From positions 248,001 through 312,000 of the forward strand of contig CAJYKU010000019.1 of the NCBI GenBank assembly GCA_913775175.1: DNA of 64,000 bases, in the 5' to 3' direction. A program made the translations under genes and the position numbers. Positions 37,558 to 45,950 of the stretch are shown piece after piece. The notes under the pieces are model-generated. The model saw only the letters and a program-made list of their open reading frames with translations, was not told where the DNA came from and did not search any database. Source of the stretch: an uncultured Pantoea sp. Lineage in GTDB: Bacteria > Pseudomonadota > Gammaproteobacteria > Enterobacterales > Enterobacteriaceae. The first letter of the stretch is position 1; each line of letters begins with the position of its first letter.

Positions 37558-37586
37558 TTGACGGCGTTATAAACATATAGTTTAAT
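37558..37586 (+). promoter_or_regulatory. Predicted pL promoter
   Basis: TTGACG (37558-37563), 17 bases, TTTAAT (37581-37586): the same spacing and -10 as pR. It drives the rightward early unit that holds small genes, the folded RNA element, the DUF4224 gene and the integrase. Confidence 0.85.
37570..37584. promoter_or_regulatory. Immunity operator 4 (TAAAC-N5-GTTTA)
   Basis: TAAACATATAGTTTA is a perfect dyad between the -35 and -10 of pL, so CI or Cro bound here would occlude the promoter. Confidence 0.83.
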
Positions 37587-37616: not shown

Positions 37617-37772
37617 ATGCACATGATGAAACAGATGTCGCATACCCGAATTGAGGACTTAATCACGTTCCTGCGTCTGTTTCCGGGTGCTGACCTGATT
37701 TGTGATGCAGACAGTGGTGTGATGAAAGTTGAGCTTAATGATACCCCGACTCAATACATACCCGCTTTCTGA
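37617..37772 (+). CDS. 51-residue early protein, first frame after pL
   Basis: This short frame starts MHMMKQMSHTRIEDLITFLR and continues with LFPGADLICDADSGVMKVEL. It is the first open frame after pL, where lambda has N. It is not Arg-rich, so it does not look like an N antiterminator. The pattern of helix, then GAD-xxxDxxSG beta turn, looks like a real small domain. No SD is strong (CAGCC before ATG), and three Met lie close together. Function unknown. Confidence 0.55.
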   Translation: MHMMKQMSHTRIEDLITFLRLFPGADLICDADSGVMKVELNDTPTQYIPAF

Positions 37773-37794
37773 AAGTCAGCTTGGGCAATTTTTT

Positions 37795-37922
37795 GCAACG
37801 GTGAGAGCATTGACGAGCAAGGCATAACGTCGGGTTCAACTCCTGGCTCCGCTACACAGTAGCGGCGATGTGCAAAGAAAAGGTTCGTTCAATTCGGACA
37901 CCGGCAATGCTCTCACCGTTGT
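37795..37922 (+). ncRNA. Candidate structured RNA bounded by a 17-bp perfect inverted repeat
   Basis: CAACGGTGAGAGCATTG (37796-37812) is exactly inverted as CAATGCTCTCACCGTTG (37905-37921), with G-U pairs extending it. The 92-base interior folds further: CCGCTAC(ACA)GTAGCGG at 37849-37865 is a perfect 7-bp hairpin, and GGTTC/GACACC near 37882-37902 can form another. No meaningful open frame fills it. It would be transcribed from pL in the early operon. A multi-branched regulatory RNA, an antitermination (nut/put-like) leader or a Cro/CI-decision RNA are options. A DNA-level role in replication or transposition (MITE-like) is the main alternative. Confidence 0.6.
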
Positions 37923-38180
37923 GATGAATGCGGCTCAGCGCTCGCGGCAAACTGACTCATTCGTTTAGTGCGATGCGATAAGTCTAAAACAGTGCCGCTC
38001 TGATATTTGTCAGTTTAACCAGAGCACCGGGAGGCACCCGGCATCACAAATTCTTTTTAGTGTGGAGAACTGGCTGTGGGTTAATGCAGTAGCTCACCAG
38101 CCTATTTAAATCAATTCCTGAGATTTTATTGCCATAACCGGCAAGGGATTCATTCAATCTGAATTTGTGTGGAGAATATT

Positions 38181-38342
38181 ATGAACTCGCCTTATGACCA
38201 TATCGTAGTGGGCATTATCACCCTGCCCTATAGCCATATCCTGAAAGGATGGTTAATGCCTGACGGCACTGTTATCAGCAATCCGATCAAGGCTCAGTAC
38301 GCAGCTGAGCGCCTCAATAACGCATCACGCACGGTTCACTGA
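38181..38342 (+). CDS. 53-residue early phage protein
   Basis: The frame MNSPYDHIVVGIITLPYSHI... followed by LMPDGTVISNPIKAQYAAERLNNA has an SD within GTGTGGAGA, 9 bases before the ATG. The segment MPDGTVISNP-KAQ-AAE-LN looks like a conserved small domain found in lambdoid early operons. Function unknown. It lies between the folded RNA element and the next small gene, 10 bases apart. Confidence 0.68.
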   Translation: MNSPYDHIVVGIITLPYSHILKGWLMPDGTVISNPIKAQYAAERLNNASRTVH

Positions 38343-38925: not shown

Positions 38926-39153
38926 ATGAATCAGGTCAGTAACGAAATTATTTCTGATGATGAGATTGAGCAGTTAACAGGCTATAAGATTCCATCAAAG
39001 CAATGTCAGTGCCTGAAGGAAGCAGGGATTTTTTTTATGGTGCGTAGAGACGGAAGACCAAGAACTACCTGGCAACATTTCAATGATCCCCTTTCGACAC
39101 GCAGTAAGCAAAATCAGGATAATAACGAGCCGAACTTTGGAGCCCTTAATTGA
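38926..39153 (+). CDS. DUF4224 protein, excisionase-position partner of integrase
   Basis: The 75 residues begin MNQVSNEIISDDEIEQLTGYKIPSKQ and continue QCLKEAGIFFMVRRDGRPRTTWQHF, the DUF4224 pattern. The family lies directly before tyrosine integrases in many phages, in the xis position, and has an AlpA/Xis-like winged helix look. Its stop overlaps the integrase ATG by one base. An excisionase role is inference from position. Confidence 0.85.
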   Translation: MNQVSNEIISDDEIEQLTGYKIPSKQCQCLKEAGIFFMVRRDGRPRTTWQHFNDPLSTRSKQNQDNNEPNFGALN

Positions 39154-40172
39154 TGGCCCGCACCAGAAAAAATAAGGAAGATAGTTGGATGCCACCCCGT
39201 GTTTATCGGGGAAAGTCTGCCTATGAATTTCATCCAAAAAACGGTGGCGCTATGCGTCTTTGCGATCTCGATTGCCCTCAGTCAAAAGTATGGGCAGCCT
39301 ATGAAGCGTTAATCAATGAAACGCCTGACATACGAACCTATAAAGCATTAGCCGAGCGTTTTTTTAAATCGCCAGATTTTCATGAGTTAGCCGCTGAGAC
39401 GCAGAAAGATTACCGAAAGTATTCAGTTAAGGTTCTGAGCGTCTTTGGCGATATGCCATCAGATGCAATAAAGCCCGAGCATGTAAGAAAGTACATGGAT
39501 AAGCGGGGCTTAAAAAGTCGAACCCAGGCTAATCGTGAGAAAGCTTTTATGTCCCGGGTTTTTAGATGGGGTTTTGAACGAGGTCTGGTAAAGCAGAATC
39601 CAACTAAAGGCGTAAAGCAATTCAGGGAGAAAGCCCGTGATCGCTATGTCACTGATGCTGAATACTCCAGTTTATACAGTGTTGCTTCTGATATAGTAAA
39701 AATTGCTATGGAATTGGCCTATCTATGCTGCGCTCGACAGGCGGACATACTCGAGTTAAAGAAGAGCCAGATAGTCGACGAAGGTATTCTTATAAAACAA
39801 AGTAAAACTTCGGTATCTCAGATCAAGGGATGGTCATCCAGGCTTAATGAAGTGATTAGTCAGGCAGCTAATCTGCCCCTCAAGCCGGGTATGAGCAGCA
39901 TCTTTGTTATCCACCAGCCATCAGGGGCGAAATATACAAGAGATGGTTTCAATAGCCGCTGGCTTAAAACCAAGCAAGAAGCAAAAGCTGCTTTTCCTGA
40001 ACTGGATTTTGATTTCACTTTTCATGACCTGAAAGCCAAAGGAATCTCTGATCTTGAAGGTAACATTTATACCAAACAGGAAATTTCCGGGCATAAGGAC
40101 GTGAAGCAAACCGCACGCTACAACAGGAGGATCGTGGTTGTGCCGGTTGTCGGAGGTCAGAAAAAGGAGTGA
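39153..40172 (+). CDS. Prophage tyrosine integrase
   Basis: The 339 residues start from MARTRKNKEDSWMPP (ATG rather than an upstream in-frame TTG). N-terminal arm-binding and core-binding domains are followed by a catalytic domain with R in CCARQADILELK, a His-xx-Lys in FHDLKAKGISD, a His in EISGHKDVKQ and the nucleophile Tyr in TARYNRR. The second Arg of the usual HxxR reads Lys. It lies at the lambda int position for this prophage and ends 106 bases from the tRNA-Leu 3' end. No flanking att repeat could be confirmed. Confidence 0.92.
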   Translation: MARTRKNKEDSWMPPRVYRGKSAYEFHPKNGGAMRLCDLDCPQSKVWAAYEALINETPDIRTYKALAERFFKSPDFHELAAETQKDYRKYSVKVLSVFGDMPSDAIKPEHVRKYMDKRGLKSRTQANREKAFMSRVFRWGFERGLVKQNPTKGVKQFREKARDRYVTDAEYSSLYSVASDIVKIAMELAYLCCARQADILELKKSQIVDEGILIKQSKTSVSQIKGWSSRLNEVISQAANLPLKPGMSSIFVIHQPSGAKYTRDGFNSRWLKTKQEAKAAFPELDFDFTFHDLKAKGISDLEGNIYTKQEISGHKDVKQTARYNRRIVVVPVVGGQKKE

Positions 40173-40217
40173 TGTATTAGGAAAATATATTAGGAAACAG
40201 GTGGTATAAAACAAAAA

Positions 40218-40237
40218 AACCACCCTGAGAGGTGGTT
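40218..40237. terminator. Hairpin between integrase and tRNA-Leu
   Basis: AACCACC(CTGAGA)GGTGGTT with a run of seven A on the left. On the minus strand this gives a T-tract, so it could end the tRNA operon. In the plus direction the T-run is short. Confidence 0.65.
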
Positions 40238-40278
40238 TATGTCATACTTAACAGCTTGTTTTTAATCGGCTTTCAGTA

Positions 40279-40364
40279 TGGTGCCCGGGGCGGGACTTGA
40301 ACCCGCACGACCATAAGCCGAGGGATTTTAAATCCCTTGTGTCTACCGATTTCACCACCCGGGC
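40279..40364 (-). tRNA. leuZ: tRNA-Leu (anticodon UAA)
   Basis: The 86-base cloverleaf has acceptor GCCCGGG/CCCGGGC, anticodon stem GGGAT/ATCCC around TTTAAAA with TAA, a long variable arm and encoded CCA. It is last in the glyW-cysT-leuZ transcript, as in E. coli. Its intact 3' end faces the prophage integrase, so it is a candidate attachment site. Confidence 0.97.
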
Positions 40365-40375
40365 AGGGTATAAAC

Positions 40376-40449
40376 TGGAGGCGCGTCCCGGAGTCGAACC
40401 GAGGTAGACGGATTTGCAATCCGTTGCATGGCCACTCTGCCAACGCGCC
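40376..40449 (-). tRNA. cysT: tRNA-Cys (anticodon GCA)
   Basis: The 74-base cloverleaf has acceptor GGCGCGT, anticodon GCA in TTGCAAA, T-loop TTCGACT and encoded CCA. Eleven bases separate it from tRNA-Leu. Confidence 0.97.
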
Positions 40450-40491
40450 TTTATTCTGATGTGTAACGGGTTAGTCACCAGTTACTAAATC

Positions 40492-40567
<76 letters not shown>

Positions 40568-44492: not shown

Positions 44493-45107
44493 TTACCGAT
44501 GTGTCTGCCAGTTTACCGAGACACCCAGTGACGGTAACACCTCTTCCGGACTAAACCGACGCGTTCCGCGATACTTGTCGGCCAGTGCTGGTTGTACTAC
44601 CGGAATGCGGATTGCAAACAAATTATCTTCAGACTGAATCAATCCCGGTGTCAGTGGTTCATATATAACCTGATGCTGAGCAAACATCTGCTCCAGCATC
44701 GGCGTCGCTGAGCTAATCAGATACTCTATGCCACTAAGCTCAGCCAGCTGCACCGAATGCCATAAAATATTGAGCGGCAGCTCAGCATCAATATCCAGGC
44801 GGGCCGAGTAACGCGACATTTCCCAGACCTTATCCTGCTCAAATGGCAGAACAATACCCTCAGAAACTTCCGGCTCTTGCCATGGCAGCAGGCGTGCGCA
44901 GCCGCAAATTCCCTTATGCACAGTCCATGCAATAAGCCAGGTGACATCTGAACGATCGTAACGGTCATATTCCTGTCCGGGTGTACTGAGCCGCGGAGGG
45001 ATTGACCAGCCTTCACCGCGCGCAAAAACGCTATAGCGGTAAGTACCCAGTTCGGCGAGGAGCGACGATGGCATATCCTTGAGCTGTGTTTGAATTATTT
45101 TCATCAT
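44493..45107 (-). CDS. LuxI-family N-acyl homoserine lactone synthase, cognate to SdiA
   Basis: This protein joins acyl chains from acyl-ACP to S-adenosylmethionine to make AHL signals. The 204 residues carry the LuxI invariant set: YRYSVFARGEGWSIP (Arg, Phe, Trp), EYDRYD (two Asp), CGCARLLPW (Arg), VWEMSRYSAR (Glu, Arg), so it should be active. E. coli and Salmonella lost this gene but keep sdiA. Pantoea and Erwinia retain it (ExpI/PhzI type). A lux-box-like dyad lies 93 bases upstream, just past the sdiA stop, suggesting autoinduction or SdiA control. The acyl chain made cannot be read from sequence. Confidence 0.93.
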   Translation of the reverse strand: MMKIIQTQLKDMPSSLLAELGTYRYSVFARGEGWSIPPRLSTPGQEYDRYDRSDVTWLIAWTVHKGICGCARLLPWQEPEVSEGIVLPFEQDKVWEMSRYSARLDIDAELPLNILWHSVQLAELSGIEYLISSATPMLEQMFAQHQVIYEPLTPGLIQSEDNLFAIRIPVVQPALADKYRGTRRFSPEEVLPSLGVSVNWQTHR

Positions 45108-45199
45108 GCGCCTCTGACATCCTCATGTGTGTAATGCTTAAAATGGAGCCAGCCTGACTTAGTTTCTGACGCAGGGTAGACAAGTCATTACATATAGGA

Positions 45200-45219
45200 A
45201 ACTACCAGTATTAGTAGTT
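45200..45219 (-). promoter_or_regulatory. Lux-box-like dyad upstream of the AHL synthase gene
   Basis: AACTACTAAT/ACTGGTAGTT is a 20-base imperfect palindrome (8 of 10 positions symmetric) with the ACT-AGT ends typical of lux boxes. It lies between sdiA and the synthase gene on their shared strand, a suitable place for SdiA-AHL to control the synthase. Confidence 0.68.
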
Positions 45220-45227
45220 GCCTTTTG

Positions 45228-45950
45228 CTATATCAGACCAACCGCAGCGGCATAGCAGGCAATTTGTGTTTTATTAGAAACGTTGAAACGTTTTTGCATG
45301 TTTTTCTGGTGAAAATTCACCGTATGTTCCGATATTGCCAGAATCAGGGAGATCTCTGCTGACGTTTTCCCCTCTGCTGTCCATTTCAGAATCTCCAGCT
45401 CGCGCCCGCTGAATTCTTTATTCAGCACCACCATCGAACAATCTTCAAGGCGGGCAAGCACCCGTAAACTCAGATCCGCCAGAAACTGTACCTGCACCTG
45501 TAGCTCAGTGCTGCGGTGACTGGATCGCCCGACTTCATGGGATGCTATTGATAATATACCAATGGCACGATTTGATGCCATTGCTGAGCAAGAAAAGCCG
45601 CTGAGTAATCCTGCTGCTTGCGCGTCAGTCCAGAGATTGCCCGCATCTGCAAAGATAGCTGCGCACCACTCAACACCCTGGCCTGGTTGCTGACAGAGCC
45701 GCAGCACTGGATCAACCTCATAATAGTTGTTGCGCTCATAGTGTTTAATCCAGGATGGCGGATAGGTACTAAACAGAAAAAAACGCGGACGAGTAAAGGG
45801 AACCGGCTGCTGTACAAAAAAAGCAAAGTAGTCAAATCCCAGCGCGACGATATGCGCCTGTAACAGTGCTTTTAATTGCACCACTTCTGTTAGCGCCAGA
45901 AACTCCTTTTCTGTTTCAGCTCGCCAGACAAAATAATTATCAGTAGTCAT
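45228..45950 (-). CDS. sdiA: SdiA, LuxR-type AHL receptor
   Basis: This is a LuxR-family transcription factor of 240 residues, the same length as E. coli SdiA. The N-terminal autoinducer-binding domain (about 20-165) shows FDYFAFFVQQPVPFTRPRFF, YPPSWIKHYERNNYYEVDPV, with the conserved Trp, Tyr and Asp of the AHL pocket. The C-terminal HTH is FSGRELEILKWTAEGKTSAEI... ISEHTVNFHQKNMQKRF. Unlike in E. coli, its signal synthase gene is next to it, so this is a complete sensing circuit. Confidence 0.95.
   Translation of the reverse strand: MTTDNYFVWRAETEKEFLALTEVVQLKALLQAHIVALGFDYFAFFVQQPVPFTRPRFFLFSTYPPSWIKHYERNNYYEVDPVLRLCQQPGQGVEWCAAIFADAGNLWTDAQAAGLLSGFSCSAMASNRAIGILSIASHEVGRSSHRSTELQVQVQFLADLSLRVLARLEDCSMVVLNKEFSGRELEILKWTAEGKTSAEISLILAISEHTVNFHQKNMQKRFNVSNKTQIACYAAAVGLI

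Follow-up and report, generated by a model that had tools for sequence, protein, structure and literature searches.

A conserved phage leader RNA with two tRNA-type T-loops, and a closing stem that surrounds different cores in its relatives

The window (the whole 64,000-nt stretch of DNA analysed here, from an uncultured Pantoea sp.) contains a prophage with a protein repressor, and downstream of the repressor gene, in the untranslated early left leader, lies a folded element of 126 nt. As an earlier note on this DNA had described, the element sits between two small ORFs of 51 and 57 aa, the nearest on the + strand (37617–37772 and 38169–38342), and is without a sensible reading frame: neither strand has an ORF of 40 aa or more that overlaps it. 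The note had also placed it just downstream of pL; a possible promoter does lie upstream, but some 200 nt away, and it was picked by eye and is absent from a consensus scan. Further along, excisionase and integrase genes (38926–40567) end just before a tRNA-Leu/Cys/Gly cluster, likely the attachment end of the prophage, and near the prophage end (44493–45950) adjacent genes for a LuxI-type synthase and a LuxR-type regulator were recognised by eye. The features of the leader are as follows.

37558–37586, + strand: possible pL promoter, TTGACG (37558–37563), 17 nt, TTTAAT (37581–37586), assigned by eye
37617–37772, + strand: 51-aa ORF between the possible promoter and the element; no match in a PHROG scan
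37796–37921, + strand: the whole element (module M1, double T-loop variant); matched by covariance model R1 at 37790–37925 with 141.6 bits, R1 having been built with the window copy
37796–37812, + strand: 5′ strand of P1, the closing stem or shell; covariation in 42 homologs
37813–37828, + strand: conserved junction ACGAGCAAGGCATAAC with a D-loop-like GG; near-invariant columns, the two G present in 42/42 and 41/42
37829–37847, + strand: T-arm 1, stem 37829–37834 / 37842–37847, loop TTCAACT (37835–37841), closing G-C
37849–37865, + strand: variable hairpin P3, 7 bp in the window; covariation
37866–37882, + strand: conserved junction from the aligned homologs, consensus GATGGGCA..GAAAAG, in the window GATGTGCA
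37883–37899, + strand: T-arm 2, stem 37883–37887 / 37895–37899, loop TTCAATT (37888–37894), closing G-C
37900–37904, + strand: linker ACCGG, leading back to P1; invariant in alignment A1, yet within the selecting motif
37905–37921, + strand: 3′ strand of P1; the counterpart of an RNase III-made end in K-12 would fall after 37911
37920–38048, + strand: next module M2, STnc100-like; stem TGTGATG (37920–37926) / CATCACA (38042–38048), abutting a hairpin at 38027–38041

Inspection of the stretch confirmed the 17-bp perfect inverted repeat (37796–37812 with 37905–37921) and the inner 7-bp hairpin (37849–37855 with 37859–37865) noted earlier, while the possible third stem of the same note does pair, as two arms (T-arm 1 and T-arm 2) and not as a single stem. 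The + strand of 37780–37940 has a folding energy of −68.0 kcal/mol (z −5.19) and the − strand of the same stretch −56.3 kcal/mol (z −3.89), with 0/200 shuffles as good in either case. For comparison among homologs we assembled an alignment, A1, of 42 cores hand-picked from 63 distinct cores with near-duplicates left out, all 63 having been chosen by the motif TTCRATTCGGACACCGG, in which T-loop 2 is fixed; the covariance model R1 was built from the same 42 cores, window copy included.

The earlier note had proposed looking for compensatory changes in homologs, and these proved strong: 15 of the 34 pairs change on both sides across the 42 homologs, namely 8/19 counted pairs in P1, 4/5 in P3, 3/5 in T-arm 1 and 0/5 in T-arm 2, with up to six pair types at single P3 positions. 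In A1, 94.2% of stem cells are paired compared with 84.1% in shuffles, and sliding the partners by 1–3 columns lowers pairing to 36–52%; all five covariation measures lie above all 500 shuffles (0/500 as high), relatedness being uncorrected in the shuffles and preserved in the slid versions. G-U outnumbers A-C in stem cells by 92 to 12, and therefore the + strand is the RNA. The element is thus a real, conserved + strand RNA, and its architecture is that of a junction, closed by P1 and made up of a variable hairpin and two arms bearing tRNA-type T-loops.

These observations bear on whether the repeat might instead work as DNA, in the manner of a MITE or an attC-like hairpin, as its large inverted repeat, its variable interior and the occurrence of the motif at several phage positions could suggest. 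We consider this highly improbable in view of the one-strand G-U excess, the conserved T-loops and the copy number: scattered copies, which the earlier note had named as the sign of a MITE, are not seen in the own genome (2.43 Mb in 45 contigs, about 75% complete), which has one full copy, its other hits being stem self-matches or pieces of 14–21 nt. A coding role also appears unlikely, given the variable P3 loop length (0–7 gap columns in the alignment) and the annotation of opposite-strand hypothetical proteins in some records only.

Each arm is capped by the tRNA T-loop G-TTCRA-NN-C, with TTC, A and the closing G-C in 42/42, so that a 7-nt TTCRANN loop with closing G-C is found in both arms of every homolog. 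T-arm 2 is paired in 99% of cells in A1, although A1 was selected on T-loop 2; because the selecting motif contains T-loop 2, its constancy in the 42 proves little. Selections that leave T-loop 2 free recover it nonetheless: it is present in 21/21 distinct cores picked by junction 1 and T-arm 1, and the junction motifs alone return 56 cores, 52 with both T-loops and four with neither, which look like chance matches. In two cores selected without T-loop 2, T-arm 2 has compensating changes (GTTCG/CGAAC and CTCCG/CGGAG). The two junctions, ACGAGCAAGGC.TAA and GATGGGCA..GAAAAG, are near-invariant; in the second, the third base of 37869–37874 is T in the window (TGTGCA) but G in the other 41 homologs (TGGGCA), which speaks against the window copy being fully equivalent. 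ARAGORN called neither a tRNA nor a tmRNA at the element, and the Rfam tRNA model (RF00005) gave no covariance match on it.

A search of Rfam 15 returned no match to the element at gathering threshold, in keeping with the earlier description of a multi-branched structured RNA of no recognised family. At relaxed threshold we obtained snoR26 on the other strand of the element (E 0.24), no C4 RNA match to the element and, on the + strand, only STnc100, on the stretch just after it. GOLLD and ROOL were rejected for lack of an Rfam gathering match in the window or in 15 homolog loci, and in the open-access literature we found no description of the shell, of a double T-loop RNA or of interior exchange. 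Within the reach of these searches, both the RNA family and the shell-and-cargo arrangement are new.

Next, we examined how widely the element occurs. By blastn, related sequence is present in 12 of 50,697 phage records (581-base query; Pantoea phage AH07 matched in the part after the element), in 79 of 5,426 E. coli genomes (with coverage of 80% or more of a 161-base query in 78) and in 3 of 72,556 plasmid records; two sequence patterns retrieved 33 and 101 IMG/VR stretches, and a pattern search of genome contigs six. R1 matched 10/295 genomes of a family sample at E ≤ 0.01, four of them above 140 bits, the own genome included, whereas under stricter filters at E ≤ 1e-5 it matched the own genome only in the order sample (1/394) and in the class sample (1/369).

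The T-loop class lies mostly in early left leaders. Among 103 distinct T-loop contexts, 26 had too little flank and 77 were used: 60/77 carry, within 3.5 kb downstream, a motif of yfdP, of rdgC or of a third recurrent gene, and in 44/77 an S24 repressor motif lies within 2.2 kb upstream. Annotated records agree with this motif-based context, the exception being the SPN1S group, in whose annotation the element stands beside the terminase and runs directly into a tRNA-Arg gene. In the homologous prophages L011, L013 and L018, a C4 antisense RNA and isrK are found in the opposite, rightward early operon.

Beyond the T-loop class, weak R1 matches retained P1 only (AH07, L016, L041, L033 and six further genomes). 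Since these shell-only scores (22–37 bits) share part of their range with antisense reads of the palindromic P1 (16–30 bits), we followed the matches up by sequence. A scan with the P1 3′ strand motif gave at least 120 IMG/VR stretches, and with an orientation and stem-energy filter at least 131 distinct modules were collected, with a median P1 of 17 pairs (15–18), a constancy that is partly by construction given the P1 motif and the energy filter. Given that the P1 motif served to find the modules, the result that counts is how diverse their interiors are, not that P1 is constant: the interiors form at least 55 rough k-mer clusters, say about 50 types, single linkage merging some and a few antisense reads (for example L151) remaining. 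An earlier count over 152 module sequences gave one T-loop in 12 and two in 45, the other 95 'no T-loop' rows including antisense reads of the T-loop class.

The cleanest case of interior exchange between near-identical leaders is that of E. coli L013 and phage mEp460. Bar a few differences, the two share about 200 nt upstream as well as the next module with some 330 nt downstream, whereas their interiors diverge, both borders of the divergent part falling within P1. Phage AH07 likewise has a similar leader with another core, a shorter hairpin core inside the shell that keeps ATGGGCA (L010:3911–4022). In L259 (about 2708–2800) and L013, a further shell-type stem (CAAAACAGAGAAGAGCATCACC with GGTGTTCTTCTCTGTTTTGTGG) follows a terminator-like hairpin.

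Modules of this wider family also occur outside early left leaders: in HK75 (late leader, after tR′), in phiEt88 (between a Q-like gene and the holin, with tRNA-Phe), in an Aeromonas phage (upstream of the terminase, with tRNA-Asn) and in two islands. On island STGO-35-1 the module accompanies a tRNA-Met and all annotated downstream genes in the fetched stretch are on the opposite strand; on SeSz-2 no tRNA was found with it, the fetched stretch has no same-strand annotated gene around or after it, and no + strand ORF exceeds 48 aa. Both islands carry a TTGACA-17-TAGATT site, promoter-like sites showing no excess over shuffles (SeSz-2, 1 against a mean of 1.0; STGO-35-1, 2 against 1.3); one + strand terminator-like site was found in STGO-35-1 (0.6 in shuffles), and none was reported in the + strand scan of SeSz-2.

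This distribution bears on a role in cis, whereby the leader RNA, put-like in action, would enable RNA polymerase to pass terminators or withstand Rho within the early left operon. Such readthrough would suit the location of the copies in early left leaders and of modules after tR′ in HK75, the sub-gathering DicF-like stretches that follow in L063 and L024, the terminator-like hairpin that follows the module in L013 and mEp460, and the window itself, where none of ten proteins tested matched an antitermination-labelled family. The islands, by contrast, offer no same-strand annotated gene to read into within the fetched stretches, terminator-like hairpins within 700 nt are only mildly enriched (60/134 junctions compared with 36/134 random stretches), and the variety of interiors exceeds what one polymerase contact would suggest. 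Searched with R1 to E 10, 20.7 kb of HK022 (20000–40751) gave no match; put is unannotated there, which makes this a one-way test. The modules in the HK75 late leader and on the islands make antitermination at pL unlikely as the general role of the wider family, and we judge this readthrough account unlikely overall, while some cis role for the T-loop class in early left leaders is equally possible as action in trans.

The element does not stand alone: the last TGTG of P1 begins a second stem, so that the next module overlaps P1. An exact 7-nt complement 50–222 nt further on was found at 55/125 junctions, compared with 6 and 5 in two controls, and an exact 7-nt next-module stem in 16/52 T-loop leaders only; we used exact matches with controls, stems at 6 or 7 of 7 matches being near chance (165 positions tried). 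In several relatives this module is tRNA-like. It scores above the Rfam tRNA gathering threshold (29) in L032 (45.9 bits), L119 (44.5), L132 (41.3), L024 (40.0) and L063 (39.9), the tRNA-scoring modules carrying long inserts, and ARAGORN calls a tRNA-Arg(UCU) starting at the junction in L009, L056 and L109. A general CCA end was rejected, CCA following the stem in 18/156 only. The next module often holds two complementary hairpin loops, GGCTGAT and ATCAGC (L256, L257, L258 and many IMG/VR loci), reminiscent of a D-loop/T-loop contact, and the two loops of L198 have GTCG and CGAC instead. As a weak sign of such kissing, at least five complementary loop bases occur in 14/30 loop combinations, compared with a mean of 8.9 when partners are shuffled (0/500 shuffles as high), most of the combinations belonging to one class.

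In the window the next module resembles STnc100 (24.5 bits, E 0.0032, gathering 47); membership of STnc100 (RF02076) was rejected, the score lying below gathering and falling on the next module. According to passages of PMC5331693, STnc100 copies are expressed in EHEC, one of them on a Northern blot, and passages of PMC13192938 link STnc100 with PasD; the element goes unmentioned in the latter passages. Together with the sub-gathering DicF-like matches right after the modules of L063 and L024 and the core exchange between L013 and mEp460, this neighbour could point to a base-pairing or immunity RNA like DicF or P4 CI RNA, its variable cores setting target or immunity specificity. We regard that as rather improbable, as conservation concentrates in the T-loops and junctions and not in an obvious single-stranded seed, and the window prophage already has a protein repressor.

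The leader of dicBF in the K-12 Qin prophage (L262) appears related, judging from its layout, a by-eye likeness of its shell and a second module that can be aligned over its length with its counterpart in the T-loop locus L018. The order is a shell-like 19-pair stem that has two small interruptions, the second module, DicF, an STnc100-like stretch (L262:1547–1687, between dicF and dicB; 34.1 bits, gathering 47) and dicB; R1 gave no match on this leader. Passages of PMC10448788 (citing Faubladier 1990) state that RNase III makes the 5′ end of the 190-nt DicF and RNase E makes the 53-nt form, that the upstream dicBF mRNA is undetected without RNase III, and that the RNase III site is at positions 813/814 in the paper's own numbering. 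Going back 190 nt from the annotated DicF end leads to L262:1346, in the 3′ strand of the stem (1339–1358); this position comes from our own arithmetic and not from positions 813/814, and an error of a few bases would still leave it in the stem. The K-12 RNase III-made end of DicF thus appears to fall inside a P1-like stem, the stems at the homologous places having 17 bp in the window and 19 interrupted pairs in K-12.

One could take P1, on this evidence, for a mere RNase III processing site that separates the upstream mRNA from downstream small RNAs, with the interior as a spacer. The mapped end in the shell stem, the loss of detectable upstream mRNA without RNase III and the recurrence of a 15–18-pair stem around many interiors would all fit, but T-loops and junctions that stay near-invariant in 42 homologs while stems vary are unexpected of a spacer, and this explanation is in our view fairly unlikely.

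The reading we favour, tentatively and at somewhat less than even confidence, is that the element is a tRNA-elbow-like phage RNA cassette, excised by RNase III and acting in trans. It would represent one variant of an undescribed modular phage RNA in which P1, of about 17 bp, closes the core, and two T-arms with GG-bearing junctions are predicted to imitate a tRNA elbow. Once the early left leader is transcribed, RNase III would cut P1, by analogy with the K-12 DicF data, and so release the core RNA together with the next module, which in some relatives resembles tRNA. Once released, the RNA would most likely act in trans on a partner that recognises tRNA elbows. Candidate targets are enzymes that process or modify tRNA and tRNA-directed defences or toxins, and phages would swap cores to change the activity. 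Extended to the whole family, we put forward as a more doubtful possibility that these are exchangeable RNA cassettes with a constant, RNase III-cut shell and many trans-acting cores, several of them elbow mimics and often with a tRNA-like partner: RNA counterparts of morons, used against tRNA-directed functions or defences of the host.

If this is right, a family of folded RNAs occupies non-coding gaps of many temperate enterophages, among them the related K-12 dicBF leader, and escapes family searches since its stem is kept but its core is not. The idea would also provide an evolutionary frame for DicF biogenesis, tie STnc100 to the same frame and supply a directly testable set of natural tRNA mimics.

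Among known systems, HK022 put RNA is about 70 nt long with two stem-loops and has copies at both pL and pR, according to passages of PMC9378689. HK022 put works through the zinc-binding domain of the RNA polymerase β′ subunit. The element shares with put the character of a structured RNA in an early left leader, with no antiterminator protein recognised among the ten window proteins, but it is a 126-nt junction with three arms, present as one R1 sense match in the window and one full copy in the own genome; with no HK022 match besides, the earlier suggestion of a put-like element replacing N finds no support as put membership. STnc100 is resembled by the module after the element and by the K-12 stretch, both below gathering, and it covers the next module and not the element. 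P4 CI and P1 C4 are phage leader RNAs processed from early transcripts, as the element would be; C4 differs in giving no match to the element and in lying in the opposite operon of L011, L013 and L018. With tRNA and tmRNA the element has in common the T-loop sequence with its closing G-C, and some of its neighbours are tRNAs or tRNA-like, but it has two T-arms and a long closing stem and is without an anticodon arm. The Qin dicBF leader (DicF, RF00039) holds another core in its stem, and the window leader has no DicF match, but the two leaders share the same order, a shell stem leading into a second structured module.
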